A DNA stretch of 22,280 nucleotides from a virus (IMGVR_UViG_3300048591_001697:1-22280), one strand, 5' to 3'. Positions 6,631 through 21,062 are shown, counted from the first letter of the stretch. The notes: generated from the letters alone by a model not told the origin. Made by a program: numbers and translations.

Positions 6631-7029
6631 ATGAGCGACCTGGACAAACTCGTTCCACAAGCCGTCGAGATCTCCCTGGCGGGCGAAGTCGTCGCCGTCA
6701 AGCCGCTGAAAATCGGTCAGATGCCCGCCTTTCTGCGGGCCATCACCCCGGTGATGCAGCAGCTCGGCGGCGACGGCATTGACTGGCTGGCGCTGTTCGG
6801 CGAACACGGCGACGACTTACTCACAGCGGTATCGATTGCCATCGGCAAACCGCGCGCGTGGGTCGATGCACTCGATGCCGACGAAGCGATCCTCGTGGCT
6901 GCCAAGGTGATAGAGGTCAATGCCGATTTTTTTACCCGGACCGTGATGCCGCGTCTGAACGAGCAAATGGGCGGCCTGTTCGCGCAGGCGAGCACGGCGA
7001 CGGTTGGTTCGACACCGTCCAGCATCTGA
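6631..7029 (+). CDS. Tail-assembly chaperone, short (G-like) form
   Basis: 132-residue zero-frame product, equivalent to lambda gpG, which coats the tape measure protein before tube polymerisation. It contains AVKPLKIGQMPAFLRAI, a mid helix around WLALFGEHGDDLLTAVSIA, and the EVNADFF segment that is common in this family. The start at ATG 6631 has GAGG at 6621-6624 (spacing six); the in-frame GTG at 6619 would overlap the tube stop and is less likely. Right after VNAD the sequence runs through a T7 slippery run (6927-6933). Zero-frame translation continues to the stop at 7027-7029; a fraction of ribosomes probably shift to make the longer form. Confidence 0.82.
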   Translation: MSDLDKLVPQAVEISLAGEVVAVKPLKIGQMPAFLRAITPVMQQLGGDGIDWLALFGEHGDDLLTAVSIAIGKPRAWVDALDADEAILVAAKVIEVNADFFTRTVMPRLNEQMGGLFAQASTATVGSTPSSI

Positions 7030-7235
7030 TTGCCCACGGCCACCGGCTGCCGGACATCCTCGACTACACCCTGGCGCAGGTGCACGGCTTCGCTGCCGCC
7101 ACCGTGCGGGAGGACGCCGCACGCGATGCGCGGCTGCTCTCGCTGATCGCCATCGGCGCACGCGGCGATCCACGTCACATCGACCAGACCCTCGACAGGC
7201 TCCAAGACCATGCGCATCTCGGTTCGCATCGATAG
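6631..7235 (+). CDS. Tail-assembly chaperone, long (GT-like) form by -1 frameshift
   Basis: A -1 shift at 6927-6933 would join the first 101 residues of the short form to a 100-residue extension read from 6933 to the stop at 7233-7235, about 201 residues in all. The extension includes WFDTVQHLIAHGHRLPDILD and then YTLAQVHGFAAAT, a 'GH....il.yTl.Q...f..a' pattern seen in T-type chaperone domains, followed by a basic-acidic helical tail. There is no ATG, GTG or TTG in that frame between the shift site and 7080, inside the domain, so independent translation of an intact T domain is unlikely. In lambda the GT form recruits tail tube protein to the tape measure. The end overlaps the next gene's start (7210). 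The shift is inferred and not shown directly. Confidence 0.72.
6927..6933 (+). promoter_or_regulatory. Probable -1 ribosomal frameshift (slippery) site, T TTT TTT
   Basis: Seven consecutive T bases are placed in the zero frame as gaT TTT TTT acc, an X XXY YYZ heptamer on which both P-site and A-site Phe tRNAs can re-pair after slipping back one base. It is the only homopolymer of this length near the overlap of the two chaperone frames. No strong hairpin is evident at the usual 5-9 base spacing; a small GCCTG/CAGGC stem lies farther on at 6974-6989. Confidence 0.7.
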
Positions 7236-7854
7236 CAAGGCCGCGCAGGCGCAGTTGCGCCGCTGGGGCGGCGAGTTCCGCGAGAAAGTGCAGAAGGCGG
7301 TCGCTCGTGGCATCGCCAGTGAGGCCGCCGAACTCAAGCAGGACGTGCGCAGCCACGTTGCAGGCCAGATGACGGTGGTCAAGAAGTCCTTCGTCAAGGG
7401 CTTCACCGCCAAGGTGCTGGACAAGGATCGGAGTCGGCTGCCCGCGCTCTACGTCGGCTCGCGCATCCCGTGGTCGGGTATTCACGAGCGGGGCGGCGTC
7501 ATTGGAGGCCGGATGCTGATCCCACTACACGGGCGTGTCGGCCGCAAACGGTTCAAGGCGCAGATCGCCGAGCTGATGCGCGGCGGAAATGCCTATTTCA
7601 TCAAGAACGCCAAGGGGAACATCGTGCTGATGGCCGAGAACATCAAGGAATACGACCGGCCACTGTCGGGCTTCAAGCGTCGCTACCGCAAGGCCGAGGG
7701 CATCAAGAAGCTGAAGCGCGGTGCCGACGTGCCCATCGCGGTGCTGGTGCCGCGCGTGCAGCTCAAGAAGCGCCTGAACGTCGAGCGCATCGTCGCGGGT
7801 CGCATTCCGCGCCTCTCCGCGCGCATCGAGAAGCAGTTGCGGCTGGTGGACTGA
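7210..7854 (+). CDS. Minor tail protein, Z-like / DUF6441-like
   Basis: 214-residue, strongly basic protein. The N terminus (MRISVRIDSKAAQAQLRRWG) resembles the opening of gpZ/HK97 gp10-type tail completion proteins, followed by an amphipathic helix (QKAVARGIASEAAELKQDV). The middle has the motif IHERGGVIGGRMLIPLHG, which looks like the 'fe.G..i.g....aiPl' signature of the phage family DUF6441, and then FIKNAKGNIVLMAENI and LVPRVQLKKRLNVERI, a 'pvavLvprv.l.krl' ending common to such proteins. It starts inside the end of the chaperone long form and lies two bases before the tape measure start. In lambda, Z is upstream of the tube gene, so this location is unusual. Role in tail assembly is inferred from context. 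Confidence 0.6.
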   Translation: MRISVRIDSKAAQAQLRRWGGEFREKVQKAVARGIASEAAELKQDVRSHVAGQMTVVKKSFVKGFTAKVLDKDRSRLPALYVGSRIPWSGIHERGGVIGGRMLIPLHGRVGRKRFKAQIAELMRGGNAYFIKNAKGNIVLMAENIKEYDRPLSGFKRRYRKAEGIKKLKRGADVPIAVLVPRVQLKKRLNVERIVAGRIPRLSARIEKQLRLVD

Positions 7855-7855
7855 A

Positions 7856-10800
7856 ATGGCGAACCGCATTTCCATCCTCGTCGCGCTCGACGGGGCCGAC
7901 GAGGGGCTCAAGCGCGCCATCACCTCGGCCGAACGCAGCCTCGGCGGGTTCGGCTCCAGCGCCAAGACCGCAGGCGACAAGGCCGCCGCCGGGATGGCCG
8001 AGGTCAAGGCTGGGATGAACGCCTTCGGCGATCAGGTCGCCAAGGCCAAGACGCAGCTGCTGGCCTTCCTCACCATCAACTGGGCGGCGGGCAAGGTGCA
8101 GGAGATCGTCCAGATCGCCGACGCCTGGAACATGATGTCCGCGCGCCTCAAGCTCGCCACCGCAGGCCAGCGCGAATACACGGTCGCGCAGAAGGAGCTG
8201 TTCGTCATCGCGCAGCGCATCGGTGTGCCGATCCAGGAAACCGCCACGCTCTACGGCAAGCTGCAGCAGGCGGTGCGGATGCTGGGCGGCGAGCAGAAGG
8301 ACGCGCTCTCGCTCACCGAAAGCATCTCGCAGGCGTTGCGCATCTCCGGCGCATCAGCTTCTGAGGCGCAGTCGTCCCTGCTGCAGTTTGGGCAGGCCTT
8401 GGCATCGGGCGTTCTGCGCGGCGAGGAGTTCAACTCCGTCGTCGAAAACAGCCCGCGTCTGGCCAAGGCACTGGCCGACGGCCTGAACGTACCCATCGGA
8501 CGGCTGCGCAAGCTCGCCGAGGAAGGGCGGCTCACCGCTGACGTGGTGGTCAACGCGCTGATGAGCCAGAAGGACAAGCTGGCCGCCGAGTACGCGCAAC
8601 TGCCGATGACCGTCAGCCAGGCCTTCACGCGTCTGTCGAACGCCTTCGGGCAGTGGGTCAGCAAGCTCGATGAATCGACCGGCTTCACCAAGAAGCTCGC
8701 CGAGGCCCTGACGTGGCTGTCGGAGAACCTGGACACGGTGATGAAGTGGCTGGGCCGCATCGCCGAGGTCGGCCTCGCGGTGCTGGTCTACCGCCTAATC
8801 CCGGCGCTGATCATCGCGTGGCAGACGGCAGGTGCGGCGGCGGTGACGGCGGCCAGCACCACGGCGGCCGCGTGGGCAACGGCCAACCTATCGTTGTCGA
8901 ACGCCATCGCCACGGTGGGCAAGCTTCGCGTGGCGTTCGGGGTGCTGGGCGCGGCCATCATCGGCTGGGAGATCGGGACGTGGCTGTCGGAAAAGTTCGA
9001 GATCGTCCGCAAGGCGGGCATTTTCATGGTCGAGGTGCTGATGAAGGGCATCGAGCACCTGCGCTTCCAGTGGGAGGTGTTCGCCGCCATCTTTAGCTCC
9101 GACACCATCGCCGAGGCTACCAAGCGCCACGAGCAGCGGCTCGCGGAGATGAATCGCATCTTCGCCGAGATGTACGCCGACGCCACCGAAGGTGCGAACG
9201 CGGCCAAGGGCGCGATGAACACCGCCGCGACCGCCGCCGAGGAGATCGCCAAGCGGCTCGAAGCCGTGCGCCAGGGCACGCAGGAAGCGGTCGGACGCGG
9301 CATCGAAGCGGTGCACGCCGCGCTGGAAAAGCTCAAGTCCCGGCTGGGCGAGGTCGAACAGGCGGTGGGCAAGGCCCAAGGCGTGGTCAACGACGCCACC
9401 GCCAAGATGGCCGAGGCCTACAAGGGGCTGACCGCCATCGTCGAGGCCAGTCTCGCGCAGCAGGTGCAGGCGGTGAAGAACCGCTACGAGCAGGAGAAGG
9501 CGGAACTGGAGCGCACCCAGCAGTCCGAAACCGCCAAAATCGCCAAATCCACCCAGCTGCTCACCGAGGCGCTGACCCAGCAGGCAACCCTGCGCCGTCA
9601 GGCCACGACCGAGACGCTCGGTCTGATCGATCAGGAAACGCAGGCGCGCAAGGATGCCGCCGCCCGGCAAGGCCAGACCGAGGAAGAGCGCCGCGCCAAC
9701 GTGCAGCGGGTCGAGAACGACATCCTCGCCACCAAGCGCCAGACCTTGACGCAGGCGCTCTCCGAGTACCGCCAGCACATCGACGCGCTCAACGCCGAAG
9801 CCAACCGGCATCTGGCCGAAGTGCAGCGCATCGAGGAAGCCAAGCGCCAGTTGTCGATGTCCACGGAGGAGCGCATCCGCGAAATCCGCCGTCAGGGCAT
9901 GACGGAGTACGAGGCCACCGAGGATCGCAAGCGCCAGATTACTGAGATGCAGGAGCAGGCGCGCCGGGCGCTGGCCAATGGCGAGTTGGAACTTGCCCGC
10001 CAGCTCGCGCAGAAGGCGATGGACATGGCCGCGCAGGTGGCCACCAGCCAGACCAACGAGGCCAAGCGCGGCGAGGAAGCGCGCAAGCAGTCCGAACAGG
10101 CGGTGTCACAGGTCACGCAACTGGAAGCGCAGTCGCGCGAGGCCTACCGCAGGCAGGAATACCAGCAGGCCACCGATCTGATGCGGCAGGCCGATCAGCT
10201 GCGTGCCGAGCTGGCGCAGAAGACCAAGGACGCCGACGCGCAGGCCGTGCAAGGCAAACAGGGGGTGCGTGAGGCCATTGACCGCATCCGCGAGTCAGAG
10301 GAAATCCTCAATCAGACATTGGATGCCGAAAGCGCGGCGCACCAGACCGCCGCACGCTCGGCGCTCACCGCACGCGATGAGATTCAGCGCACGCTGGCCG
10401 AGACCACGCGCCAGATCGACGACATCACAGCGAAGCTCAGGGACGGCCTGAAGATCACGCTCGACGCCGACACCACGCGTTTCGATCAGGCCATCGCCGA
10501 TCTGGATACGGCATTGGCCGAGAAGGAGTACCTGCTACAGATCCAGGCCGACCTGCAGGAAGCGGAGAAGAAGCTCAAGGAATACGAGGCGCTGCTCAAG
10601 GAAGGCAAGACGCTGCCGGTCGATGCCGACGTGTCCAAGGCACGCGAGGCGCTGGACAAGCTCAAGGCCTACGCCGACCAGAACGCACAGTTCGAGCTGA
10701 AGGTGGCGACCGAGAAGGCGCAGGCGGCCATCACCAATGTCGAAGGAATGATCAAGGCGCTGGATCGCATCCAGACCGAGTCACAGCATCAGGTGGCCAG

Positions 10801-11896
10801 CAACGTCGGTGCGGTACGCGCGGAAATCGACAGCCTCAATGGGCGTAACACCTCCAGCACGCACACCATCTACGTGACCAAGGTGGAAACCAATGCCACC
10901 GGCGGTCTGGTTGGTGGCGTGCGACGGTTTGCCGAAGGCGGTTCGGTCGCTCCGGCCTTTCCCCGTATGAGCGGTGGCTCGGTGCCCGGCTCCGGCCACC
11001 ACGACACCGTGCCACGCACCCTGGACGCCGGTGCCTTCGTCATCCGCAAGGCGGCCGTGCAGAAATACGGCAGCGGCGCGCTCTCGCGGTTGGCCCGCGG
11101 GGTCGCCCACTTTGCACGCGGCGGCCCAGTGGCGATGTTCGGCGGCGGCAAGGCGCGCGATGCCGACCCGAACGACAAGCCGAGCAGGCCCAAGAAGAAC
11201 CGCGAAGCGTTCGAGGCCCTGAAGATGATCGATCTCGGCCTGCAGGGGATGAACGAGTACACGAGCTGGCTGCAGTGGAACTACGGCGCATCGGTCAGTC
11301 TGGATATGCGCAGCAAGACGATGGAGAACTACGGCAAGCAGGCGCAGCAGGATCGCCGCACGCTGGAAGAGTTCATGAGTCGCAAGACGCTCACCGGCAA
11401 CGAGCGCCAGAACCTGGAGCGGATCAAGCAGACGTGGCGGCAGGCGATGGCCCAGCCGCTGCTCTGGGGCAAAGACCTGGAGCGCGAGCTGATCGACTAC
11501 ATGGAGCAGAACCAGGGCGAGTTCTACCGGCGCGGCGGGTTGTCCAAATCCGACACCGTCCCCGCGATGCTCACGCCCGGCGAGTACGTCGTGAACCGGC
11601 AGGCCGTCGCCCGCTACGGCGCGGGCTTCTTCGAGGCCATCAACAACCTGTCCGCACCCGCGCAGAACTTGGCGGGCCGTGCGCTGGCGAGCATTCAAGG
11701 CTTCGCCAGCGGCGGCTTGGTGCAACCCATTGGCGCGAACCTGCCACGACCTGCCTTGAACGACGCCAGTGCGCCCGCGCGCACCGTGCGTGTGGAGCTG
11801 GCCGCAGGCGGCAGCAAGGTCAACGCCTCCATCGATGCGCGTGACGAGGCCCGCCTGCTGCAACTGCTGGACGCGGCACGCGCACGCACCGCCTGA
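7856..11896 (+). CDS. Tape measure protein
   Basis: 1346 residues, the longest gene in the window. It sets tail length by spanning the tube lumen during assembly and is ejected ahead of DNA. Residues about 85-270 match the N-terminal tape-measure domain (MMSARLKLATAG, ELFVIAQRIGVPIQETATLY, SGVLRGEEFNSVVENSPRLA, LTADVVVNALMSQ). Two hydrophobic stretches follow (about 302-322 and 357-377), which could act on the inner membrane during DNA entry. Residues about 450-1000 are Gln/Glu/Ala/Arg-rich with heptad character, consistent with long coiled coil. The C terminus is glycine-rich and carries two copies of a DTVP...(G)(E/A)(Y/F)V.....A...YG motif (about 1045-1075 and 1232-1256). At roughly 1.5 angstrom per residue the tail would be near 200 nm. 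It starts two bases after the previous gene. Confidence 0.95.
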   Translation: MANRISILVALDGADEGLKRAITSAERSLGGFGSSAKTAGDKAAAGMAEVKAGMNAFGDQVAKAKTQLLAFLTINWAAGKVQEIVQIADAWNMMSARLKLATAGQREYTVAQKELFVIAQRIGVPIQETATLYGKLQQAVRMLGGEQKDALSLTESISQALRISGASASEAQSSLLQFGQALASGVLRGEEFNSVVENSPRLAKALADGLNVPIGRLRKLAEEGRLTADVVVNALMSQKDKLAAEYAQLPMTVSQAFTRLSNAFGQWVSKLDESTGFTKKLAEALTWLSENLDTVMKWLGRIAEVGLAVLVYRLIPALIIAWQTAGAAAVTAASTTAAAWATANLSLSNAIATVGKLRVAFGVLGAAIIGWEIGTWLSEKFEIVRKAGIFMVEVLMKGIEHLRFQWEVFAAIFSSDTIAEATKRHEQRLAEMNRIFAEMYADATEGANAAKGAMNTAATAAEEIAKRLEAVRQGTQEAVGRGIEAVHAALEKLKSRLGEVEQAVGKAQGVVNDATAKMAEAYKGLTAIVEASLAQQVQAVKNRYEQEKAELERTQQSETAKIAKSTQLLTEALTQQATLRRQATTETLGLIDQETQARKDAAARQGQTEEERRANVQRVENDILATKRQTLTQALSEYRQHIDALNAEANRHLAEVQRIEEAKRQLSMSTEERIREIRRQGMTEYEATEDRKRQITEMQEQARRALANGELELARQLAQKAMDMAAQVATSQTNEAKRGEEARKQSEQAVSQVTQLEAQSREAYRRQEYQQATDLMRQADQLRAELAQKTKDADAQAVQGKQGVREAIDRIRESEEILNQTLDAESAAHQTAARSALTARDEIQRTLAETTRQIDDITAKLRDGLKITLDADTTRFDQAIADLDTALAEKEYLLQIQADLQEAEKKLKEYEALLKEGKTLPVDADVSKAREALDKLKAYADQNAQFELKVATEKAQAAITNVEGMIKALDRIQTESQHQVASNVGAVRAEIDSLNGRNTSSTHTIYVTKVETNATGGLVGGVRRFAEGGSVAPAFPRMSGGSVPGSGHHDTVPRTLDAGAFVIRKAAVQKYGSGALSRLARGVAHFARGGPVAMFGGGKARDADPNDKPSRPKKNREAFEALKMIDLGLQGMNEYTSWLQWNYGASVSLDMRSKTMENYGKQAQQDRRTLEEFMSRKTLTGNERQNLERIKQTWRQAMAQPLLWGKDLERELIDYMEQNQGEFYRRGGLSKSDTVPAMLTPGEYVVNRQAVARYGAGFFEAINNLSAPAQNLAGRALASIQGFASGGLVQPIGANLPRPALNDASAPARTVRVELAAGGSKVNASIDARDEARLLQLLDAARARTA

Positions 11897-11912: not shown

Positions 11913-12320
11913 ATGCAACTGAAGAACCTCGCCACCGGGGTGGCTCTGCCATTGCCGGACGACTTGCTGTGGGCGGACGAGCACGCGTGGTCGCCCGCCG
12001 TCACCGCCGTGTCCTACCTGCTCACCGGCGCGCTGCTGGTGCAGTCGGCAACTAAGCAGGCGGGCCGCCCGATCACGCTGGTTGGCCCATCGGACATGGC
12101 GTGGGTGACACGCGCGACGGTGGCCACCTTGCACACCTGGGCCGCTGCGCCCCTGGCTGCGACCAGTGGGCGGTTCGAGCTGACGCTACGCGATGCGCGC
12201 GTGTTCACCGTGGCCTTCCGTCACGCAGACACCGCTATCGACGCCGAACCCGTGCTGGGCTTCCCGGCGCAATCCGACACCGATTTCTATCGCATCACCT
12301 TGCGGCTGATGCAGCTCTGA
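11913..12320 (+). CDS. Unknown tail protein following the tape measure
   Basis: 135 residues; no function can be named with confidence. It begins MQLKNLATGVALPLPDDLLW, has a mostly beta layout with a run containing WADEHAWSPAVTAVSYLLTGALLVQSATK, then RPITLVGPSDMAWVTRATV and GRFELTLRDARVFTVAFRHAD, and ends FYRITLRLMQL. This recalls small distal-tail proteins with an N-terminal beta sandwich, and the place right after the tape measure is that of lambda gpM, which sits at the tail tip. The start at 11913 comes 17 bases after the tape measure gene, with only a weak GAGA upstream. The gene is complete, and its membership of the tail tip is inferred from position alone. Confidence 0.7.
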   Translation: MQLKNLATGVALPLPDDLLWADEHAWSPAVTAVSYLLTGALLVQSATKQAGRPITLVGPSDMAWVTRATVATLHTWAAAPLAATSGRFELTLRDARVFTVAFRHADTAIDAEPVLGFPAQSDTDFYRITLRLMQL

Positions 12321-12336
12321 TCAACCGGAGAATCCC

Positions 12337-15300
12337 ATGCCCATTCTTGCAGGCGACGTGAAGCTGGTCGCCAGTCAGGTGATGGACGACGTCGCCGAAG
12401 GCGGCGGCGCGCCCACCTCCAACGTCATCGTGGACGGCGCGAGCAACTCGCTGTTCAACGACATCTCGGAACTGGATCGTGCAGGCGGGCGCGTGAACCT
12501 GCGCAAGGTGTTCGCCAGCATCCAGACCGACACCACCGATACCTATCTGGGCGGCAACGTAGTGGTGTCCGATCCGCCCGCCGATCCGCGCGTGGCCGTC
12601 ACCATCTTCTCCACCGAGGAGGTGTTCGACCGCCGCACCAACGCGCGCGACCGCATCGAGGCCTACCTCAACAAAGGTTCGATGTGGAATGGCTTTCTGC
12701 TGGAGAACCACATCGCGGGCCAGCGCAGCATCCAGATCTTCCAGCGGGTGGGCGCGGAGCTGCCGACCATTGGCAAGACCCTGTTCCTGGTGATGAACGA
12801 AGGGCTGGCCAACGAATACTCGCAGTACATCCGGATCACGCGCATCGAGTCGGAAACACGCACCTTCAGCTACGGCTCGGGCAGCAGTATTCAGGACTAC
12901 CAAGCGGTGGTCGTCACCTGCGATCTGTCGGACGCGCTGCGCTACGATTTCCCGGGTTCGCCGCCGGATCGCCTGTTCACGATGGCCACCGGCAAGACCA
13001 AAACCCGCGACACCGTGGTGGCCGATGCCGCCAAGTATTGCGGGGTGGTCAAGACGACCCAGCCGGTGGCCATTGGCGACGTGGCTGCCAGCATCACCAG
13101 CGTGTTCACCCAACTCGTGCCCTCGGCGCAGACGGAAACTCCGCTGCTCGATCTCACTGCGGGCGGTACCTCGGAAACCCTGATCGAGTCCGACAACGGC
13201 ACGGTGTCCTACACCACCTCGGTCGCGTTCAATTCCTCGACCGTGCTGTCGGTCGGCAACGCCATCCAGCCGGGAACCCTCTCGATCACCGTCAGCGGCG
13301 CAACGCTTGTGGACAACGGTGGCGACCTGCTGTCGGGTGCGACCGTAGTGGGCACTGTGAACTATGGCCGGGGCCAGATCGCGCTGGCATCGAGTGCGCC
13401 GACCTATTCGGGCAGCAAGACCATCACCTTCCGGCCTGCCGCTGCGCCGATCCGCGTGGCTGACACGGCGGGCATCCGGGTCGACATCGAGAGCCGTTCG
13501 TACAACTACATCCTGACCATCGTGCCCAGCCCGTCGCCCGGCACGATTCAGGTGAGCTACCGCGCCCAAGGAAAGTGGTACGACTTGCGCGATAACGGCG
13601 CGGGCGTGTTGAAGGGGGCCAGCCCGGAGTACGGCGTCGGTACCGTCAGCTACACCACCGGCACGGTCGCCGTCACCTTGGGGGCGCTGCCCGATGTGGG
13701 CAGCGAGATCGTCTATGCCTGGGGCGGCAAGGCCAACTACTTCAACCGATCTGGCGGCAGCATTGCGCCGCCAGCGGTCGCCTTTCAGCTCTCCAACGCA
13801 GGTGTGACGCCGGGTTCGGTGTCCATCACCTGGAACGACGGCACGGCGCGAACCGCCACCGATGATGGCAAGGGCACGATCAGCGGGCACGCCAGCGGCA
13901 CCATCAACTACCAGACGGGCCTGATCCAGATCACGCCTGCTGCACTGCCTGCGGGCGGCCAGACCTACAGCGTTGCCTATACCTGGGGCCCGCCCAACGA
14001 GGAGGCGTTTCCCGCGCCGCTGCGCAACGGCGACGGCAGCATCGACGTGGAAGTCGAGTTCGATGGCCTGATCCCAGGCACGGTCGAACTGGAGTGGAAC
14101 CTGCTGATCGACCTGTACGAGTACATCTCCACCACGCCTGCCGAACTCCAGCTGATCCGCCAGATCGACCCGATCAAGATCGTCAAGGATGACGGTCTAG
14201 GCGTGCTGCGTGACCCGCAGGGTACGGCCTTTGGGACAGTGAACTACTCAACCGGCGTCGTTCACTTCAGCCCTGACACCACGGTTCGCATCCCGGTGGC
14301 GCGCTACAGCGTCACCCGCATCGGCTGGACACGCAATGCGAACAACGCGCTGGTGCCGGTGTACCGCAATCTGTTCTCGCATTGGGAGTACATCACGGCG
14401 GGTGCATCGATGCCCATCGACGAATCGGGCTGGGCGAAGGTGCGCTTCCGTGCTGCGGGCACATCGAATGCGGTCAATGACAGTTTCACGGCGGGCGCGC
14501 TGGCCATCGATCTCACCCCGAGTTTTGCAGAGAACATCGTCCCCGGCAGCATCAACTTCACGCTGGGCGGTAAGACTTACTTCGATCGGCTGGGCAGCCT
14601 CTACTACGACCTGAACCCAGTGACCGGCGAGGCCACGTTGGCGGGCGGCATCAACTACGCCACCGGCGCTGCGAGCATAACCGCGTGGGTGCCTGCCGCC
14701 TCGAACGCTGTCGGTCTGCGCTCACTGCTTACCACCCTGGATGGCACGCCGGTCGATGAGGTGACCTTCCGCGTCCCGGCCTCACCAGTGCGGCCATCGA
14801 GCCTGCAGTTACTGGCCACGCGCCTGACAGGCGGCACGATCAACGTCAGCGCCAACAACAACGGCGACATTACCGGCACCGACGTGGTGGGCACTATCGA
14901 CTACGAGACCGGGGTCGTGCGGGTTCGCTTCGGCGCCTGGGTGGTGGCAGCTGGCAACGAGGGACAGAGTTGGTACGACCCGGGTGCGGTAGTCACCATC
15001 GAAGGGGTTGCGAAGATCTTCAAGCCGGTGCCGGTGTTTGCCGACACCATCAAGTACAACGCGGTCGCGTACTCCTACCTGCCGCTGGACGCCGACATCA
15101 TCGGCCTCGATCCGGTGCGCCTGCCGCAGGATGGCCGGGTGCCAATCTTCCGAGCGGGCGACTTCGCCGTGATTGGGCACACCGCCACGGTCGGGCCGCT
15201 CACCGCGACCAGTGGGCAGATCGTGGATTGCGGGCGCGAGCGCTTGTCGCGCGTGCGCGTGCTGGATGGCAACGGCGACGTCGTGACCACTGACTACACC

Positions 15301-15942
15301 GCCGATCTCGAAGCCGGAACCGTCACCTTCGGTGTGGTCACTGGGCTCGTGCAGCCGCTCACGGTAGAGCACCGCATCGAGGACATGGCGCAGGTATCGG
15401 ACGTGCAGATCTCCGGACGGCTGGCCTTTACCCGCCAGATCACACACGACTATCCGGTCGGCTCGCACGTGTCCTCTGCGCTGGTGTCGGGCGACCTTCG
15501 CGCCTACGTCTCCAACCTGTTCGATCAGGCCACGTGGAACGGCACGTTTCTCGATGCCATCAGCGGCAGCGCGGCGACCGCCACTTACAACGACGTGTTG
15601 GCTCCCATCGTGGTCACCAATGCCGGGGCGATTACCGAGCGCTGGGCGATCCAGTTCACCAACGCCACCTCGTTCAACGTCATCGGCGAGCACGTCGGCG
15701 TGATCGCTACCGGAACCACGGGCAGCAACATCGCACCGATCAATCCGGCTACCGGCAAGCCGTACTTCACGCTGGCCGCCATTGGCTGGGGCTCGGGTTG
15801 GGCGACAGGAAACGTGCTGCGCTTTAACACCACGGGCGCGCTGTTTCCGGTGTGGGTCGTCCGCACCATTCAGCAGGGTCCGGAAACTGTCACCAACGAT
15901 GCCTTCACCTTGCTGGTGCGCGGCGACGTGGATCGTCCTTGA
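12337..15942 (+). CDS. Large conserved distal-tail protein with tandem beta modules
   Basis: 1201 residues with a strong start (GGAGAA at 12327-12332, ATG at 12337). The N-terminal ~270 residues (GDVKLVASQVMDDVAEGGGA, SNSLFNDISELDRAGGRVNL, IEAYLNKGSMWNGFLLENH, GQRSIQIFQR, LFTMATGKTKTRDTVVADAA, QLVPSAQTETPLLDL) are of a kind I recognise from tail regions of other proteobacterial phages, where it has no assigned function. From about residue 312 to 875 there are six repeated modules of 53-82 residues, each opening PG or PS and containing G-(T/G)-(I/V)-x-Y-x-(T/R)-G, then alternating hydrophobic strands. A related shorter unit follows near residues 970-1010. The C-terminal ~190 residues end with a WAIQFTNATSFNVIGEHVG-type segment. 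By size and place it is probably a central tail-tip or baseplate component. It shows no enzyme motif that I can identify. Confidence 0.8.
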   Translation: MPILAGDVKLVASQVMDDVAEGGGAPTSNVIVDGASNSLFNDISELDRAGGRVNLRKVFASIQTDTTDTYLGGNVVVSDPPADPRVAVTIFSTEEVFDRRTNARDRIEAYLNKGSMWNGFLLENHIAGQRSIQIFQRVGAELPTIGKTLFLVMNEGLANEYSQYIRITRIESETRTFSYGSGSSIQDYQAVVVTCDLSDALRYDFPGSPPDRLFTMATGKTKTRDTVVADAAKYCGVVKTTQPVAIGDVAASITSVFTQLVPSAQTETPLLDLTAGGTSETLIESDNGTVSYTTSVAFNSSTVLSVGNAIQPGTLSITVSGATLVDNGGDLLSGATVVGTVNYGRGQIALASSAPTYSGSKTITFRPAAAPIRVADTAGIRVDIESRSYNYILTIVPSPSPGTIQVSYRAQGKWYDLRDNGAGVLKGASPEYGVGTVSYTTGTVAVTLGALPDVGSEIVYAWGGKANYFNRSGGSIAPPAVAFQLSNAGVTPGSVSITWNDGTARTATDDGKGTISGHASGTINYQTGLIQITPAALPAGGQTYSVAYTWGPPNEEAFPAPLRNGDGSIDVEVEFDGLIPGTVELEWNLLIDLYEYISTTPAELQLIRQIDPIKIVKDDGLGVLRDPQGTAFGTVNYSTGVVHFSPDTTVRIPVARYSVTRIGWTRNANNALVPVYRNLFSHWEYITAGASMPIDESGWAKVRFRAAGTSNAVNDSFTAGALAIDLTPSFAENIVPGSINFTLGGKTYFDRLGSLYYDLNPVTGEATLAGGINYATGAASITAWVPAASNAVGLRSLLTTLDGTPVDEVTFRVPASPVRPSSLQLLATRLTGGTINVSANNNGDITGTDVVGTIDYETGVVRVRFGAWVVAAGNEGQSWYDPGAVVTIEGVAKIFKPVPVFADTIKYNAVAYSYLPLDADIIGLDPVRLPQDGRVPIFRAGDFAVIGHTATVGPLTATSGQIVDCGRERLSRVRVLDGNGDVVTTDYTADLEAGTVTFGVVTGLVQPLTVEHRIEDMAQVSDVQISGRLAFTRQITHDYPVGSHVSSALVSGDLRAYVSNLFDQATWNGTFLDAISGSAATATYNDVLAPIVVTNAGAITERWAIQFTNATSFNVIGEHVGVIATGTTGSNIAPINPATGKPYFTLAAIGWGSGWATGNVLRFNTTGALFPVWVVRTIQQGPETVTNDAFTLLVRGDVDRP
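13270..14961 (+). repeat. Six tandem beta-sandwich-like protein modules within the 1201-residue tail protein
   Basis: Approximate units are 13270-13440, 13537-13728, 13810-13989, 14074-14319, 14542-14700 and 14794-14961. Each starts with PG(T/S) or PSS, continues as (V/I/L)xhxh strand, passes a D/N-G-x-G turn, then reads GT(V/I)xY-x-(T/R)-G before one or two strands, often ending Y.WG. DNA identity between units is low, so the repetition is ancient at the protein level. It does not reflect recent duplication of DNA. Confidence 0.7.
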
Positions 15943-15952
15943 GAGGAATGCG

Positions 15953-17221
15953 ATGAGCAACAAGGTCAAATGGATGCACAATGGGTTTCCAGGCGCGCCG
16001 GTGCTGACCAACAACTGGGGCAGCCTAACGGCACTGCTGGACGCGTGCCTGGTCAACGGCTTCAACCTCAAGACGGTGACGGCACTCTCTCGCACGGACG
16101 ATACGGCCACCGCGACCATTGGCTCCGGGCACGGATTCATGGTCGATCAGGTTGTGCTGGTGGAGGGCTGCGATCAGCCGTCCTACAACGGCGAGTTCAC
16201 GGTCATAGGTGTCACCTCGACCACGGTGAGCTTTCGTGTGGCAGGCGAACCTGCGTCGCCCGCCACCACCCAGACCGGCATCACGATGAAGATCGCGCCG
16301 CTGGGATTTGAGATTGCGTTCACGGGCACCCACAAGCGTGCCTACCGAAGCCCAAACCCGCAGTCGAATCGGCACTTCCTGCGTGTCGACGATAGCCTCC
16401 CCACAGGCTACACATCGACGTGGGCCAAGTTCGGGCGCGTGACCATCGCCGAGGGCATGTCCGACATCGACACCTTCGTCGGCGCGCAAGCGCCGTTTAC
16501 GCCGGGTGCGCCGACGCGCAATGAGATCCCGACCGGAAGCGGCACGACGATGTACGCAGGTTGGTTCAAGTGGTACTACGCGCGCCAGTCCTACGCCGAG
16601 ACGTCCGGCGACAACGGCAACTGGGGCCGCAGCTGGGTACTGATCGGCGACGACCGTGGGTTCTTTCTAATCAACTCGTCGGGCTATCAGGGCGACTGGC
16701 GCGTACTGCACGCCTTCACTGATTTCGACAGCTACAAGCCCGGCGACAACTTCGCGTCCTACCTGATCGCTTCGGAACGGTATCAGCAGGCCAACTACAC
16801 GGGCGGCAGCTATCCCTACCAGGATGCCTACTCGTGCCAATCACTCGATACAACCGGCAAGATTTGCATGCGCGATTACACGCAGCTTGGCGGCAATGTG
16901 CGCCTTGGGATGCTCTCGCTCAACGACCAGAACGGTCAATCCATCTCCGGACGTTCTGGTGCGATCCCATTTCCAAACGGCCCGGACTACGGCCTCATCC
17001 TGCATCCGATTTACCTGCGCGAAAGCAGTGGTCATCTGCGAGGGACGTTGCCAGGAATGCTCTGGGTTCACCAAAACCAGCCCTACGGCCATCTGACCAT
17101 GATCGACAACGTCATCGGCTACGAGGATCGCAAGTTTCTCTACGTGACCATCGCTTCGTACTCGAGCGAGACCAACAGCTGCGGCTTTTGCTTTGACATC
17201 ACCGGGCCGTGGAGACCGTAA
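15953..17221 (+). CDS. Unknown distal-tail protein, aromatic- and glycine-rich
   Basis: 422 residues, starting after GAGAGGAA at 15941-15948. No enzyme motif is recognised. The N terminus (NKVKWMHNGFPGAPVLTNNW, then GSLTALLDACLVNGFN) looks like a binding segment that attaches the protein to the tip. Residues 45-105 form a small beta module (SGHGFMVDQVVLVEGCDQ, YNGEFTVIGVTSTTVSFRV) resembling the tail-surface domain seen in phage structural proteins. From about 110 it is rich in Tyr, Trp, Gly and Asn (KWYYARQSY, GDNGNWGRSWVLIGDDRGFFL, GYQGDWRVLHAF), and the end has CGFCFDITGPWRP. The composition suits a carbohydrate- or receptor-facing surface, but that is inference. Its start in the C-terminal overlap of the previous frame (an in-frame ATG at 15782) is rejected. 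Confidence 0.7.
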   Translation: MSNKVKWMHNGFPGAPVLTNNWGSLTALLDACLVNGFNLKTVTALSRTDDTATATIGSGHGFMVDQVVLVEGCDQPSYNGEFTVIGVTSTTVSFRVAGEPASPATTQTGITMKIAPLGFEIAFTGTHKRAYRSPNPQSNRHFLRVDDSLPTGYTSTWAKFGRVTIAEGMSDIDTFVGAQAPFTPGAPTRNEIPTGSGTTMYAGWFKWYYARQSYAETSGDNGNWGRSWVLIGDDRGFFLINSSGYQGDWRVLHAFTDFDSYKPGDNFASYLIASERYQQANYTGGSYPYQDAYSCQSLDTTGKICMRDYTQLGGNVRLGMLSLNDQNGQSISGRSGAIPFPNGPDYGLILHPIYLRESSGHLRGTLPGMLWVHQNQPYGHLTMIDNVIGYEDRKFLYVTIASYSSETNSCGFCFDITGPWRP

Positions 17222-17224
17222 GCC

Positions 17225-18205
17225 GTGGCCTATCCATTTGAGGAGAATTTCGCCTCCGGCATCCCTCCGGGCTTTTCAAGCAACGGCGGCAACGCTGGGA
17301 TCACGACCACGTGGAATGCAGTGGAGGAGTGCGCCGATCTCGTGTTCAACAACTCCCAGAGCTTTTGGCGCTTGTCGGATGCTCCGCTGAGCACGGATTT
17401 CTGGTTCGAGATGGACGTGGAGATCGTTGCATCGGCATCGCCGCCTCCACACTTCGGTTTCTGGCTCTGGACGGGGGTGGGCACCTACGAAGGGCATCGC
17501 CTCTGCGTCTACAACAGCAATTGGGTCCACTCGTACTGGACAAGCGGCGGCTCTGAGTACGAACAGGTCACCGAAGCATGGGCAGGCTGGGCTGTGGTCA
17601 GCGCGCGCCGCACCATCCGGCTAGAGATCAAGCGCCAAGCGAATCTCGACGTGTGGCTTCTGCAACTGTCGGTGGATGGCGAAATCGTCTGGAGCGACCT
17701 CAAGCGCTGGTATTCGTCCCTTCGTCCCTGCATCTTCGGCTACGGGATCACGCTGCGCGTGCATCGGGTCGCAGGTAATGCGGGCAGCGGGCTGGAGGAC
17801 ATGCCGCCTCCCGCGCATCGTCGACTCCCTGTCGCACTGGCGCACCGTGTCCTCGTCCCGGACAACGCAGCTGCGCTGCGTTATGGCCATCGCGGCCTGC
17901 GCCTACTACTCGGCACGCGCAACCACTACTACCACGGTGACCACCGCATCGCTGGCACCGTGAAACACCGCGTGAAAGGGGTTATCGCGGATGAGCCATT
18001 GCAGCGACGCGTGCTGCTGATCGATCAAGCCACGTACATCGTGGTGCGCGAGACCTGGAGCGACGCCAGTACCGGCGCGTACTCGTTCGACCACATCGAC
18101 CCGGTGCCTCACTACCTCGTCATCGCCTTCGACCACGCACGACAGCACCGCGCCGTCATCGCCGACGACCTGCGTGCGCAACCCATGACGGAGTCTCAAC
18201 CGTGA
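17225..18205 (+). CDS. Two-domain tail protein: N-terminal lectin-like beta domain and C-terminal regulatory-like beta domain
   Basis: 326 residues with a GTG start at 17225; GGAG at 17211-17214 lies ten bases upstream. Residues 1-190 (FEENFASGIPPGFSSNGG, then FWFEMDVEIVASASPPPHFG, LWTGVGTYEGHRLCVYNSN, TIRLEIKRQANLDVWLLQLS) have the order of strands expected of a jelly-roll or concanavalin-like fold. After a proline/arginine-rich linker (about 190-235) a second domain begins: GTVKHRVKGVIADEPLQRRV, then LLIDQATYIVVRETWSD, ASTGAYSFDHIDPVPHYLVI, ending AFDHARQHRAVIADDL. This is the 'G.v......p..rrv.l.d.....vr.t.sd..G.Y.f..i.....Y.via.D' pattern of carboxypeptidase-regulatory-like or prealbumin-type beta domains, and is frequent in phage tail proteins. 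The stop overlaps the next GTG start. Fold assignment is by pattern only; the receptor-binding role is a guess. Confidence 0.68.
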   Translation: MAYPFEENFASGIPPGFSSNGGNAGITTTWNAVEECADLVFNNSQSFWRLSDAPLSTDFWFEMDVEIVASASPPPHFGFWLWTGVGTYEGHRLCVYNSNWVHSYWTSGGSEYEQVTEAWAGWAVVSARRTIRLEIKRQANLDVWLLQLSVDGEIVWSDLKRWYSSLRPCIFGYGITLRVHRVAGNAGSGLEDMPPPAHRRLPVALAHRVLVPDNAAALRYGHRGLRLLLGTRNHYYHGDHRIAGTVKHRVKGVIADEPLQRRVLLIDQATYIVVRETWSDASTGAYSFDHIDPVPHYLVIAFDHARQHRAVIADDLRAQPMTESQP

Positions 18206-18591
18206 TCCAGATCTCGAACGCGCTCAACGACTACCGCCTGAACGCCGTCATCAACTTCCTGGCCATCGGCACAGAGAACGCCAGCGTCCGAATCTACAGC
18301 GGCGTGCGTCCGTCCTTCGGCGCGGCCCCGACCGGCGATCTGCTGGCCACCATCGTGTTGGTCGAGCCCATCGGCGAGGTGGAGGACGGGCTGCTGACCA
18401 TCACGCCCACCGGCGAAGCCCTGATTGAAACCAGCGGCGAGGCGACCTGGGCGCGCATCGTCAACGGCAACGGTGCGCTGGCCTGGGACTGCGACGTGTC
18501 CGATCTGGACGGTACGGGCGAATTACGCCTTCCGTCGACCACGCTCTACGCCGGGGGCTACACCCGCATCGTGTCCGGTATTCTGGGGTAG
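18202..18591 (+). CDS. Small conserved tail protein of unknown function
   Basis: 129 residues with a GTG start that overlaps the previous stop (GTGA at 18202-18205). The sequence runs ISNALNDYRLNAVINFLAIG, ASVRIYSGVRPSFGAAPTGD, LLATIVLVEPIGEVEDGLL, then ATWARIVNGNGALAWDCDVSD and a final GELRLPSTTLYAGGYTRIV. It is all beta in appearance, with the 'sGeAtWaRivnGnG' and 'GtGel.L.stt..aG' patterns that recur in phage tail-region proteins of proteobacteria. The compact size, beta composition and position next to the hub-like gene suggest a tip structural subunit, but I cannot assign a function. The gene is complete and ends three bases before the next start. Confidence 0.72.
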   Translation: MIQISNALNDYRLNAVINFLAIGTENASVRIYSGVRPSFGAAPTGDLLATIVLVEPIGEVEDGLLTITPTGEALIETSGEATWARIVNGNGALAWDCDVSDLDGTGELRLPSTTLYAGGYTRIVSGILG

Positions 18592-18594
18592 TCG

Positions 18595-20463
18595 ATGAGC
18601 GATCCCGGCGAAATCACTCTCGCCGCCACGCTGCCCGAACTGAGCTTCACTGCAACCGCGATTCCAAACGCCAACGCCGTATTGCAGACGGCGCTGCCCG
18701 CCCTGACGTTCACGGCGCATGCGGTGACCCGCACGGATGTGTCTCTGGTCGGCACCTTCCCGCCGCTGGCGATGCTGGCTGAGGCACGGTACCAGTCCTA
18801 CGCGGTGCGCCCCATCACTGGGCAGAATTCGACCCGCTGGCAGCACGCCAGCAGGCACAGCAACGGTGCCGAGGCTCGGCGCGAGGCTACATCACACCTG
18901 CACGACGCTTCGCGCTCTCGGTGGCAGAGCGCCGGGCCCTGGGTGATAGGTGTGGAAAACCGCCGCACCAGCACGCGCGTGCGCGCGCCCCTGGCCCGAC
19001 AAACGTGGCAGCAAGGGGCTGTGCCGGTGCCGTCCGGCGCGGTATTGAGCCATGCCGACGCCATCCGGCTGCGCACGACCCGGAAAACGACCTTCGACGA
19101 GGCCATCCGCACCCAGTGGCTGCGCTGGGTCATCCGGCACCAGGACGGTTGGCGCGACCGCAGGCTCACAGCCAACTCCCACTACCAGGAAGCGCAACGG
19201 CACGCCGGGCACTCCCACGCCGAGGGCATCCGCAGCGCGGTTTACCGGCGTCGCTGGTGGACGGCGCTCTGGCAGGCAGCGATGCGTCCCCGACCGGGTC
19301 GCCATCCGGTGGTGCCATTCGTGCCGCCATTGCCCCCGGCGTGCTACGCGCCGAACGGGCACTTGCTGTTTTCCGAGGACGTCGCCACCGATGGCGACCT
19401 CTTGTTCGTCTGCGAGCACTACGACCAGCCGCAGGCCGGGTCGGTGCCCGTTCCCATCCGGAGGATGTATTTCGTGATCAATGAGGTGACGCTGACGCGC
19501 TGGCCCGATGGCACGCCGGTGCCGGTGCAGGGCCTATCGCTATCGCTGGATGCAGATTCTTGGGCATGGGGCTTCGAGGCCACCTTGCCCCTGATCGCCG
19601 AGTCCCTGCTGCTGCCTGCCGAGGGTGCCGCCCCGGTAGAACTCATCGCTACGGTCAACGGCACCGCCTTCCACGTCCTGGCCGAAAACCTGAGCCGTGA
19701 GCGGGTGTTCGGCGACGCCAGTATTCGCATCTCTGGCCGGGGACGCAGCGCAGTCCTGGCCGCTCCTTACGCGCCGGTGATGGCCTTTGCCAACACCGAG
19801 CCGCGCAGCGCGCAGCAGTTGATGGAGGACGTGCTGATGTTCAACGGCATCCCTCTGGGCTGGACAGTGGATTGGGCTCTGACCGATTGGCTGGTGCCCA
19901 CCGGCGTGTTCGCCAAGCAAGGGACGTGGATCGAGGCACTGACCACCATTGTCGGTGCGGCGGGTGGCTACCTGCTGCCGCATCCGTCCGAGAAGATTCT
20001 GCGCGTGCGCCATCGCTACCCGGTGGTGCCGTGGGCCTGGTGGACGGAGGTGACGCCGGACTTCGTGCTGCCAGTGGACACGGTGGCGCGCGAATCGCTG
20101 CGCTGGATCGACAAGCCCGCCTACAACCGTGTGTTCGTTGCAGGCCAGGAGACAGGTGTGCTTGGACAGGTCACGCGCACCGGCACAGCGGGTGATGTGC
20201 TTGCTCCGATGTTGGTCGATGCGCTCATTACCCAAGCTGCGGCGGCACGCCAGCGTGGCATCGCGGTGCTGTCGGACACAGGTCGCCAGATCGAGGTCAC
20301 GCTGCGTCTGCCGGTTCTGCCCGAAACCGGAATCATCGAACCGGGCGCTTTCATTGCTTACCAGGACGGCGGCGTGGCACGGCTGGGGCTGGTGCGCTCG
20401 ACGCGCATCGATGCGGGTTTGCCGGAGGTCTGGCAGACCCTGGGAGTGCAGAGCCATGCATAA
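18595..20463 (+). CDS. Probable tail hub protein with an unusual N-terminal repeat extension
   Basis: 622 residues. Residues 6-68 are three 21-residue units (see repeat). About 69-255 is a strongly basic, Trp/His/Arg-rich stretch (TRWQHASRHSNGAEARREA, RSRWQSAGPW, VYRRRWWTALWQAAMRPRPG), with spaced tryptophans and little regular hydrophobicity. From about 285 the protein becomes well ordered: RRMYFVINEVTLTRWPDGTP, LSLDADSWAWGFEATLP, then ENLSRERVFGDASIRISGRG, SAQQLMEDVLMFNGIPLGWT, and a closing sheet with RVRHRYPVVPWAWW. Such 'v.l.r..Dgt.lp....sl..d.dSWaW' sequences are found in proteins that correspond to tail hub (gp27-like) rings in other phages, which is the basis of this call. The stop overlaps the next gene (ATG at 20456). 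N-terminal function is unknown. Confidence 0.62.
   Translation: MSDPGEITLAATLPELSFTATAIPNANAVLQTALPALTFTAHAVTRTDVSLVGTFPPLAMLAEARYQSYAVRPITGQNSTRWQHASRHSNGAEARREATSHLHDASRSRWQSAGPWVIGVENRRTSTRVRAPLARQTWQQGAVPVPSGAVLSHADAIRLRTTRKTTFDEAIRTQWLRWVIRHQDGWRDRRLTANSHYQEAQRHAGHSHAEGIRSAVYRRRWWTALWQAAMRPRPGRHPVVPFVPPLPPACYAPNGHLLFSEDVATDGDLLFVCEHYDQPQAGSVPVPIRRMYFVINEVTLTRWPDGTPVPVQGLSLSLDADSWAWGFEATLPLIAESLLLPAEGAAPVELIATVNGTAFHVLAENLSRERVFGDASIRISGRGRSAVLAAPYAPVMAFANTEPRSAQQLMEDVLMFNGIPLGWTVDWALTDWLVPTGVFAKQGTWIEALTTIVGAAGGYLLPHPSEKILRVRHRYPVVPWAWWTEVTPDFVLPVDTVARESLRWIDKPAYNRVFVAGQETGVLGQVTRTGTAGDVLAPMLVDALITQAAAARQRGIAVLSDTGRQIEVTLRLPVLPETGIIEPGAFIAYQDGGVARLGLVRSTRIDAGLPEVWQTLGVQSHA
18610..18798 (+). 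repeat. Three 21-residue protein repeats at the N terminus of the hub-like protein
   Basis: The units, 63 bases each, read EITLAATLPELSFTATAI..., NAVLQTALPALTFTAHAV... and DVSLVGTFPPLAMLAEAR.... They share xLxxT/G(L/F)PxLxFxA. At DNA level they have diverged, so they are best seen at the protein level. Confidence 0.75.
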
Positions 20464-20677
20464 CCTCTACCAGCAGTTCCGGCAGTTGCTGCCCGATGCA
20501 CCACTGCAAGCAGGGACCGTGCTCGAGGTCGGCTCAGGTATCGCCCTAGTGGTGCTACCCGGTGGCGGCCTGATCCGCGCGCGTGGCAACGCAACCGTGG
20601 GCCAAACCGTGTTCGTGCGCGACGAGGTGATCGAGGGCATTGCTCCCTCACTGCCGCTAGAACTCATCGACATCTGA
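20456..20677 (+). CDS. Small hub-associated protein, OB-like
   Basis: 73 residues starting inside the end of the hub-like gene (ATG 20456, previous stop 20461-20463). The sequence is a helix (NLYQQFRQLLPDAP) followed by short strands: AGTVLEVGSGIALVVLPGGG, then LIRARGNATVGQTVFVRDEV and a final IAPSLPLELIDI. The G-rich alternating hydrophobic pattern (V.v..G....v.lpGg..i.arG....G..V.V) resembles a small beta-barrel of the kind that accompanies hub proteins in other tails. No catalytic residue is visible. It is the last gene before the hairpin at 20702-20734 and so closes the tail operon. Structural role is inferred. Confidence 0.68.
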   Translation: MHNLYQQFRQLLPDAPLQAGTVLEVGSGIALVVLPGGGLIRARGNATVGQTVFVRDEVIEGIAPSLPLELIDI

Positions 20678-20756: not shown

Positions 20757-21062
20757 ATGACTGAACCCGAACAACACCCCGCCGCCCTCGTAGAAAACAT
20801 GCTTCTGCTTCGCCGCGAGGACTTCGACGAACTGCTCGACCGTGCAGCTGAACGCGGGGCCGAACGCTGCCTGGCCCACCTCGGGCTGGAGAACGGCAGT
20901 GCTGCGAAGGACATCCGCGAACTGCGCGATCTGCTGGAAGCTTGGCGTGATGCCCGCCGCACGGCGTGGCAGACCACCATCAAGGTCGTGACCACCGGCA
21001 TCCTGGCCGCGCTGCTGGTGGGTGCCGCCATCAAGTTGAAACTGATGGGAGGCGTGCAATGA
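20757..21062 (+). CDS. Single-TM phage protein (DUF6127-like), lysis-module associated
   Basis: 101 residues preceded by GGAGA at 20745-20749. Residues 1-70 are charged and helical (LLLRREDFDELLDRAAERGA, then AAKDIRELRDLLEAWRDARR), which looks like an amphipathic cytoplasmic part. Residues about 74-94 form one transmembrane helix (IKVVTTGILAALLVGAAIKL). This layout, acidic-basic helix followed by a C-terminal TM, matches DUF6127-type phage proteins that sit in lysis cassettes. It might be a holin of the one-TM type or a holin partner; the second membrane protein downstream is a better holin candidate. The stop overlaps the next start (ATGA at 21059-21062). Confidence 0.7.
   Translation: MTEPEQHPAALVENMLLLRREDFDELLDRAAERGAERCLAHLGLENGSAAKDIRELRDLLEAWRDARRTAWQTTIKVVTTGILAALLVGAAIKLKLMGGVQ

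Follow-up and report, generated by a model that had tools for sequence, protein, structure and literature searches.

A probable two-layer tail tip with a predicted gp27/gp44-type hub and an exchangeable adhesion cassette in a lambda-headed siphophage

Introduction

The Mu-like Shewanella siphophage MuM16-1 carries a module, p45–p49, that was reported in 2021 as a five-gene set linking Mu-like and other siphophages and was proposed to act in receptor recognition; p45, p46 and p48 were found in virions by mass spectrometry, and the module also occurs in the Shewanella 1/44 and Nahant phages (PMC8541194). Here we analyze a related block of seven genes, g1–g7, at positions 11913–20677 of a 22,280-base virus record from IMG/VR (IMGVR_UViG_3300048591_001697:1-22280). 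The whole of this stretch is referred to as the window. The seven genes lie on the plus strand directly after the gene for the tape measure protein (TMP) and are overlapping or adjacent. We consider it probable that in this lambda-headed, non-contractile phage they encode a distal tail tip of two layers, a fixed core and an exchangeable adhesion device.

MuM16-1 has homologs of g2, g3 (p46), g6 and g7 in the same order, with the counterpart of g1, p44, just upstream. It differs in having a Mu-type head, a shorter g2 (~820 aa) and one small gene in place of g4 and g5. The parts of that paper considered here contain no description of a hub fold, an exchange unit or adhesin modularity (PMC8541194). 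Hidden Markov model hits for g1, g2, g3, g6 and g7, again in the same order and also seen with tblastn, identified a MuM16-1-type module in two of our loci, L009 and L010. The same tip block, with different g3–g5 contents, is present in Pseudoalteromonas phage B8b, whose head type differs from that of the window, and in Stenotrophomonas phage S1, Curvibacter phage PCA1 and Acidovorax phage ACF1.

The Seven-Gene Tip Block

The features of the block and its left flank, all on the plus strand and in window coordinates, are as follows.

7856–11896, plus strand: tape measure protein, left flank of the module (PF20155 TMP_3, E = 9e-65; phrog_8010)
11913–12320, plus strand: g1, 135 aa, candidate distal tail protein (Dit), by position and size (phrog_4408, E = 5e-40)
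12337–15942, plus strand: g2, 1201 aa, long platform or skirt protein, all beta in the predicted model (phrog_6128 over the full length)
12670–13023, plus strand: g2 domain like the oligonucleotide/oligosaccharide-binding (OB) fold, residues 112–229 (VIA Z 8.4 to 8rk3_D, 8.3 to 8vjh_B, 9.6 to a capsule lyase)
13204–14946, plus strand: six immunoglobulin (Ig)-like repeats of g2, residues ~290–870 (signature G-T-[IV]-x-Y-x-[TR]-G; internal profile self-matches, E ~1e-24)
15953–17221, plus strand: g3, 422 aa, virion protein encoded in the exchangeable cassette (phrog_9998, E = 4e-99; phrog_9600, "tail assembly protein")
17225–18205, plus strand: g4, 326 aa
17225–17917, plus strand: g4 N-terminal domain, aa 1–231, exchanged adhesin domain, likely receptor-binding (N-domain replacement in relatives)
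17918–18187, plus strand: g4 C-terminal domain, aa 232–321, conserved anchor, carboxypeptidase-regulatory-like (phrog_21337; weak PF13620 in relatives)
18202–18591, plus strand: g5, 129 aa, virion structural protein encoded in the cassette (phrog_3758, E = 2e-20)
18595–20463, plus strand: g6, 622 aa
18595–19464, plus strand: g6 N-terminal extension, aa 1–290, variable, with a ~14.3-residue repeat [WYF][QE]x[AS]; right-hand swap point near 19340
19465–20463, plus strand: g6 hub domain, aa 291–622, predicted gp27/Mu gp44/VgrG fold (AF2, Foldseek, VIA, hhalign)
20456–20677, plus strand: g7, 73 aa, candidate small core partner of the hub (phrog_5076, E = 1e-19)

Relatives were collected by scanning IMG/VR with a g6 alignment, which gave 471 hits of which the best 80 were kept, and four further queries added more loci. 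The order g1-g2-g3-g4-g5-g6-g7 is unbroken in 197 of 197 loci and all seven genes are present in 86, from which we conclude that g1–g7 are real genes. Wherever the locus is long enough, g1, g2, g6 and g7 form a near-universal core, and g3–g5 are frequently unrecognizable. With tblastn, g2 and g6 were each found in 34 phage records, largely the same ones. Fourteen loci lie on bacterial genome contigs, from Burkholderiales-, Rhodocyclales- and Xanthomonadales-type bacteria and metagenome-assembled genomes. In a sample of 300 genomes from one order, g2 was present in 8. A DNA-level search against 50,697 phage records returned no close relative of the window.

The block is found behind several head types. 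These are lambda-type in the window, PCA1 and ACF1, Mu-like in MuM16-1, and one that combines capsid E with a Mu F-like protein in Psychrobacter phage Y8A, while B8b is a phage with an HK97-type prohead peptidase. The gene order of Y8A (L008, 7503–19498) is unusual: the tip block stands directly after the major tail protein, and the tape measure gene is ~2.5 kb downstream of the block.

The original prediction, made from the window alone, had described the seven genes as poorly known and as the best candidate for a previously undescribed system. The genes are not without families, however: PHROG matches are strong for six of them and weak for g4, where the match lies at the C-terminus, and g6 contains a tail hub at the fold level. 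The claim of an undescribed system is not supported, as the PHROG families exist and a five-gene version was already reported in 2021 (PMC8541194). What is new here is the hub fold of g6 and its ~14.3-residue repeat, the swap unit of g2–g5 with the g6 N-terminus, the modularity of g4 and the all-beta, Ig-like architecture of g2.

A Predicted Hub at the End of g6

The structure of g6 was predicted with AlphaFold2 (AF2) from 25 diverse homologs. The predicted local distance difference test (pLDDT) score was ~90 for residues 291–622 and below 50 for residues 1–290. In the model, residues 294–622 carry the complete gp27/Mu gp44/VgrG hub fold (Foldseek E = 1e-19), and the tip core therefore has the universal hub. 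The highest VIA Z scores were obtained for phage Milano (22.6, 8fqc) and Mu gp44 (21.6, 9ki1), followed by VgrG and extracellular injection systems (19–20) and T4 gp27 (17.5); the matches to Milano, Mu gp44 and VgrG (Z 19–22.6) extend over ~290 residues with root-mean-square deviations of 3–3.7 Å. The siphophage hubs of T5 (pb3, Z 12.4 over 310 residues), Chi (11.9) and JBD30 (gp53, 11.2 over 208 residues) belong to the same superfamily but score lower than the hubs of contractile machines, to which the predicted g6 hub is thus nearest. The hub stretch was independently aligned to Mu gp44 by sequence profile (hhalign E = 1e-4); the g6 profile did not match YuA gp76.

Unlike the contractile systems of Mu, T4 and VgrG, this phage most likely has a non-contractile tail, since the annotated genes of the window showed no sheath gene. 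Its spike partner would be a protein of 73 aa at most. In the cultured relative PCA1 the tail is non-contractile and ~150 nm long (PMC9763317).

Mu gp44 lacks the ~290-aa N-terminal repeat extension of g6. In this extension, aromatic-[QE]-x-[AS] motifs occur at multiples of ~14.3 residues. Among 52 N-termini with low mutual similarity, aromatic-[QE] pairs were counted 32 times at lag 14, 43 times at lag 28 and 28 times at lag 57, against 0.7 expected in each case. The g6 of ACF1 has nine consecutive motifs at a spacing of 14–15, with the exception of one double gap. Such a repeat could form a fibrous or helical shaft.

The last gene, g7, overlaps g6 translationally in most loci, and in phage UFOVP1367 (L007, 14456–16837) it is fused to the g6 C-terminus, similar to the fusion of hub and spike domains in VgrG. 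Overlap and fusion suggest that g7 is a small plug or hub partner, possibly OB-like. Its profile did not match Mu gp45, and PDB sequence hits to ribosomal S1 and TCP10 were rejected as short, repetitive or chance matches.

The Exchange Unit

The extent of the exchangeable part is sharpest in a comparison of the loci L014 and L060. These share ~95% identity across the TMP gene and g1 but only ~60% once g2 begins, and 87–98% again from about codon 256 of g6, just before the hub domain. Between adjacent 100-nt bins the identity falls from 91 to 58% at the end of g1, and it rises from 59 to 87% inside g6. Identity resumes at the same right-hand point (window ~19,342) in two other comparisons. On this profile the exchange unit in L014/L060 consists of g2–g5 and the g6 extension, and g1, the hub and g7 belong to the core. 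The original prediction had raised the question whether the seven-gene block moves as a cassette. An exchangeable cassette is present, but the notion of all seven genes always moving together was dropped after this comparison, in which g1, hub and g7 stay with the tape measure gene.

Other breakpoints were seen with L026 and L071, where identity drops already near the end of the TMP gene and is high again only after g7. Between the window and L026 the TMP is 94% identical, and g2, g3 and g6 are 48–57% identical (g2 48%). The comparison with L020 gives the reverse, with 50% for the TMP and 82% for g2. The trees of the TMP, g2 and the g6 hub conflict. Approximately unbiased (AU) tests reject the TMP grouping for g2 (p = 7e-50) and the g2 grouping for the TMP (p = 5e-95), and for the hub they reject both (p = 0.003 and 0.002); as the groups were picked after the identities and trees had been seen, these p values are descriptive.

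A gene of the DUF6127 family (PF19622, E = 1e-28) at 20757–21062 directly follows the tip block; in L026 and L071 it bounds the diverged region on the right.

g4 as a Probable Modular Adhesin

Proteins in the g4 position fall into 18 clusters, all of which have the last ~90 residues of g4 (232–321) in common, for most with 40–52% identity. In 14 of the 17 other clusters this is the only part that aligns with the g4 of the window. A laminin-G domain makes up the N-terminal part in six strong cases (L003, L070, L077, L081, L083, and L087); in one case that part is an F5/8C (discoidin) domain and in one a set of WD40 repeats, and in the others, including the window, it is unrecognized. A fixed C-terminal domain with swapped N-terminal domains of binding type is the pattern expected of a modular adhesin with interchangeable heads. 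As this combination fits an adhesin, g4 is the best candidate for the host-range determinant and, among the genes of the block, the likeliest. Separately, UFOVP1367 has an FG-GAP propeller protein near the place of g4.

The receptor could instead be bound by g2, g3 or the N-terminal extension of g6, with g4 acting as a decoration or as an accessory for initial sugar binding. The middle of g2 and the N-terminus of g6 are as variable as g4, and Pseudomonas aeruginosa relatives retain g1, g2, g6 and g7, yet have unrelated open reading frames (ORFs) in the g3–g5 positions. These ORFs may, however, be other adhesins in the same slot, and g4 alone shows a fixed anchor on which unrelated, known binding domains replace one another entirely. 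We therefore regard receptor binding outside g4 as rather unlikely, though it is the alternative that fares best.

g1, g2 and the Distal Tail Protein

Located right after the TMP gene, g1 has the position and size of lambda M and of T1 gp37, which was modelled to residue 117 and is numbered next to the TMP, gp38 (PMC11945409). From position and size, g1 is likely the Dit ring, and in L014/L060 the identity break at its end means that it remains with the TMP upon a cassette swap. The g1 profile matched neither lambda M nor Mu gp43. A PDB sequence hit to the designed "Cake" propellers covered 16 residues and was set aside as a short, repetitive or chance match.

The AF2 model of g2 (residues 1–1200, mean pLDDT 81) is all beta, so the all-beta character that the original prediction gave to several of the proteins holds for g2. 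No whole-chain fold match was found in PDB or BFVD, where the hits were rejected because their TM-scores over the query did not exceed 0.1. The variable part of g2 is its middle, and its two ends are conserved. Two adjacent genes take the place of g2 in L003 (ACF1), L006 (AS1), L070 and L166, so that the conserved N- and C-terminal parts are separated. In B8b both halves of the g2 homolog were detected in virions by mass spectrometry, together with the g6 homolog (PMC4294664).

These features raise the question whether g2, and not g1, is the distal tail protein, as a trimer with Dit-like N- and C-terminal halves and the Ig-like repeats inserted between them. The model would be JBD30 gp49, in which two beta-sandwiches bridge sixfold to threefold symmetry. 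Conserved ends around a variable middle and the two-gene form in some phages are in keeping with this, and residues 112–229 resemble the gp49 OB domain (Z 8.4; domain assigned in PMC11445458) and that of a 557-residue tail-tip chain of phage Chi (Z 8.3). The same residues are, however, matched better by a capsule lyase (Z 9.6). The N-terminal, middle and C-terminal parts of g2 gave no profile match to the Dit proteins of JBD30, Chi or YuA, nor did the N-terminal end match the C-terminal end. Moreover, g2 is swapped while the TMP and hub stay put, which would be unusual for a core ring protein. In our view a Dit role for g2 is unlikely, and g1 is the better candidate.

Relation to Lambda- and T5-Type Tips

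Lambda and the window share a lambda-type head upstream, and g1 stands in the position of M. As the original prediction stated, no homolog of L, K, I or J was recognized: g1–g7 gave no Pfam match (E ≤ 1) or NCBIfam match (E ≤ 0.1) to lambda M, L, K, I or J, and none to an NlpC/JAB peptidase, and sequence-profile alignments of g6 with lambda L, g6 with J and g2 with J found nothing (E 0.25–0.78), although J may still be related at the fold level. The hubs of T5, JBD30 and Chi are 700–1300 aa long with further domains, and here the hub domain is the end of g6. JBD30 and Chi have the order Dit, upper baseplate, two small genes, hub and receptor-binding protein. This differs from g1-g2-g3-g4-g5-hub-g7, also in gene sizes and families.

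A diverged lambda- or T5-type tip, with genes corresponding one-to-one to M, L, K, I and J or to pb9, pb3 and pb4, would agree with the position and size of g1 and with the superfamily fold that the g6 hub shares with T5 pb3 (Z 12.4). It would not account for the missing K/I peptidase-type gene, the lack of profile matches for g2–g5 and g7, or the different gene order and sizes, with the hub in sixth place behind the adhesin genes. We consider it very unlikely. Only g6 could be matched to a lambda or T5 tip protein, at the fold level; g1, g3, g4, g5 and g7 were compared by sequence only. The tip is thus of a design other than lambda's, as had been predicted, but its core is not of an unknown kind, given the gp27/gp44 hub fold of g6.

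Hardly credible is a faster evolution of the tip genes in place instead of exchange, for although adhesion genes often evolve fast and g6 identity declines gradually toward the N-terminus in several pairs, the breakpoints in L014/L060 are sharp (91 to 58% and 59 to 87%), the direction reverses between the L026 and L020 pairs and a shared tree is rejected by the AU tests.

Proposed Architecture of the Tip

The two-layer tip that we propose builds on the gene order, the homology, the hub fold of the predicted model, the exchange unit and the modularity of g4. The first layer would be a fixed core made of g1 as a small ring, presumably Dit, the hub, and g7 as a putative plug. In this core the C-terminal half of g6 would close the tube as a gp27/gp44-type hub, probably a trimer. 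The second layer would be the exchangeable adhesion device, with g2 as a platform bearing Ig-like repeats, g3, g5, the N-terminal extension of g6, which may tie the device to the hub, and g4. The conserved C-terminal domain of g4 would dock on the device and the N-terminal domain would contact the cell surface, possibly binding the receptor. A binding signal from g4 might then pass through the second layer to the hub, which would open and release the tape measure and DNA. The swapped cassette probably decides to which bacteria these phages stick.

Several points weigh against this architecture. The N-terminal domain of the window's g4 matches no family and no laminin-G profile, so that its lectin nature is by analogy only. 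The OB-like domain of g2, as found in distal tail proteins, means that g2 rather than g1 could be Dit. In the P. aeruginosa relatives (L005 group), which keep g1, g2, g6 and g7, homologs of g3–g5 were not recognized and unrelated ORFs are found there. Finally, the window is an uncultured metagenomic virus record and possibly a fragment.

The two-layer tip might also represent a distinct class of siphophage adhesion device, but this we put forward tentatively. In such a class, a hub protein with a fibrous N-terminal extension of ~14.3-residue repeats would form a swappable module with g2–g5, and specificity would reside in an adhesin of reversed polarity, with a C-terminal anchor and an N-terminal lectin, discoidin or propeller head. 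A layout with a hub-borne repeat extension and a reversed-polarity adhesin is absent from the solved tips matched in this analysis.

Head, Upstream Tail and Downstream Genes

The head and tail genes before the block are lambda-type by profile, in agreement with the mostly lambda-like order predicted up to the tape measure. The head genes comprise the gpA nuclease, W, the lambda portal (PF05136), an S49 protease, D (PF02924), E (PF03864) and FII (PF05354). They are followed by profile matches to a terminator, an Ig-like major tail protein, a tail chaperone and the TMP. At 6634–7235 the chaperone ORF (6634–7029) is overlapped by an ORF in another frame, the end of which (~7005–7232) matches phrog_13355, a 58-residue family. 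The two look like a frameshift pair of the lambda G/GT type; no obvious slippery heptamer was seen. At 7210–7854 the genes for the tail chaperone and the tape measure are separated by one for a 214-aa protein of unknown function (phrog_6367), in a position that lambda leaves unused. Downstream of g1–g7 the DUF6127 gene is followed by an endolysin and then an Rz-type gene.

Significance

For a large group of Proteobacteria siphophages, most of it unannotated, the analysis lists tail-tip parts in a form that can be tested. This group extends to hundreds of IMG/VR contigs and to phages of Pseudomonas, Stenotrophomonas, Acidovorax, Shewanella, and Vibrio. It also names a natural exchange unit and its breakpoints. 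With the g4 slot as the likeliest host-range determinant, it would aid the prediction of hosts from sequence.

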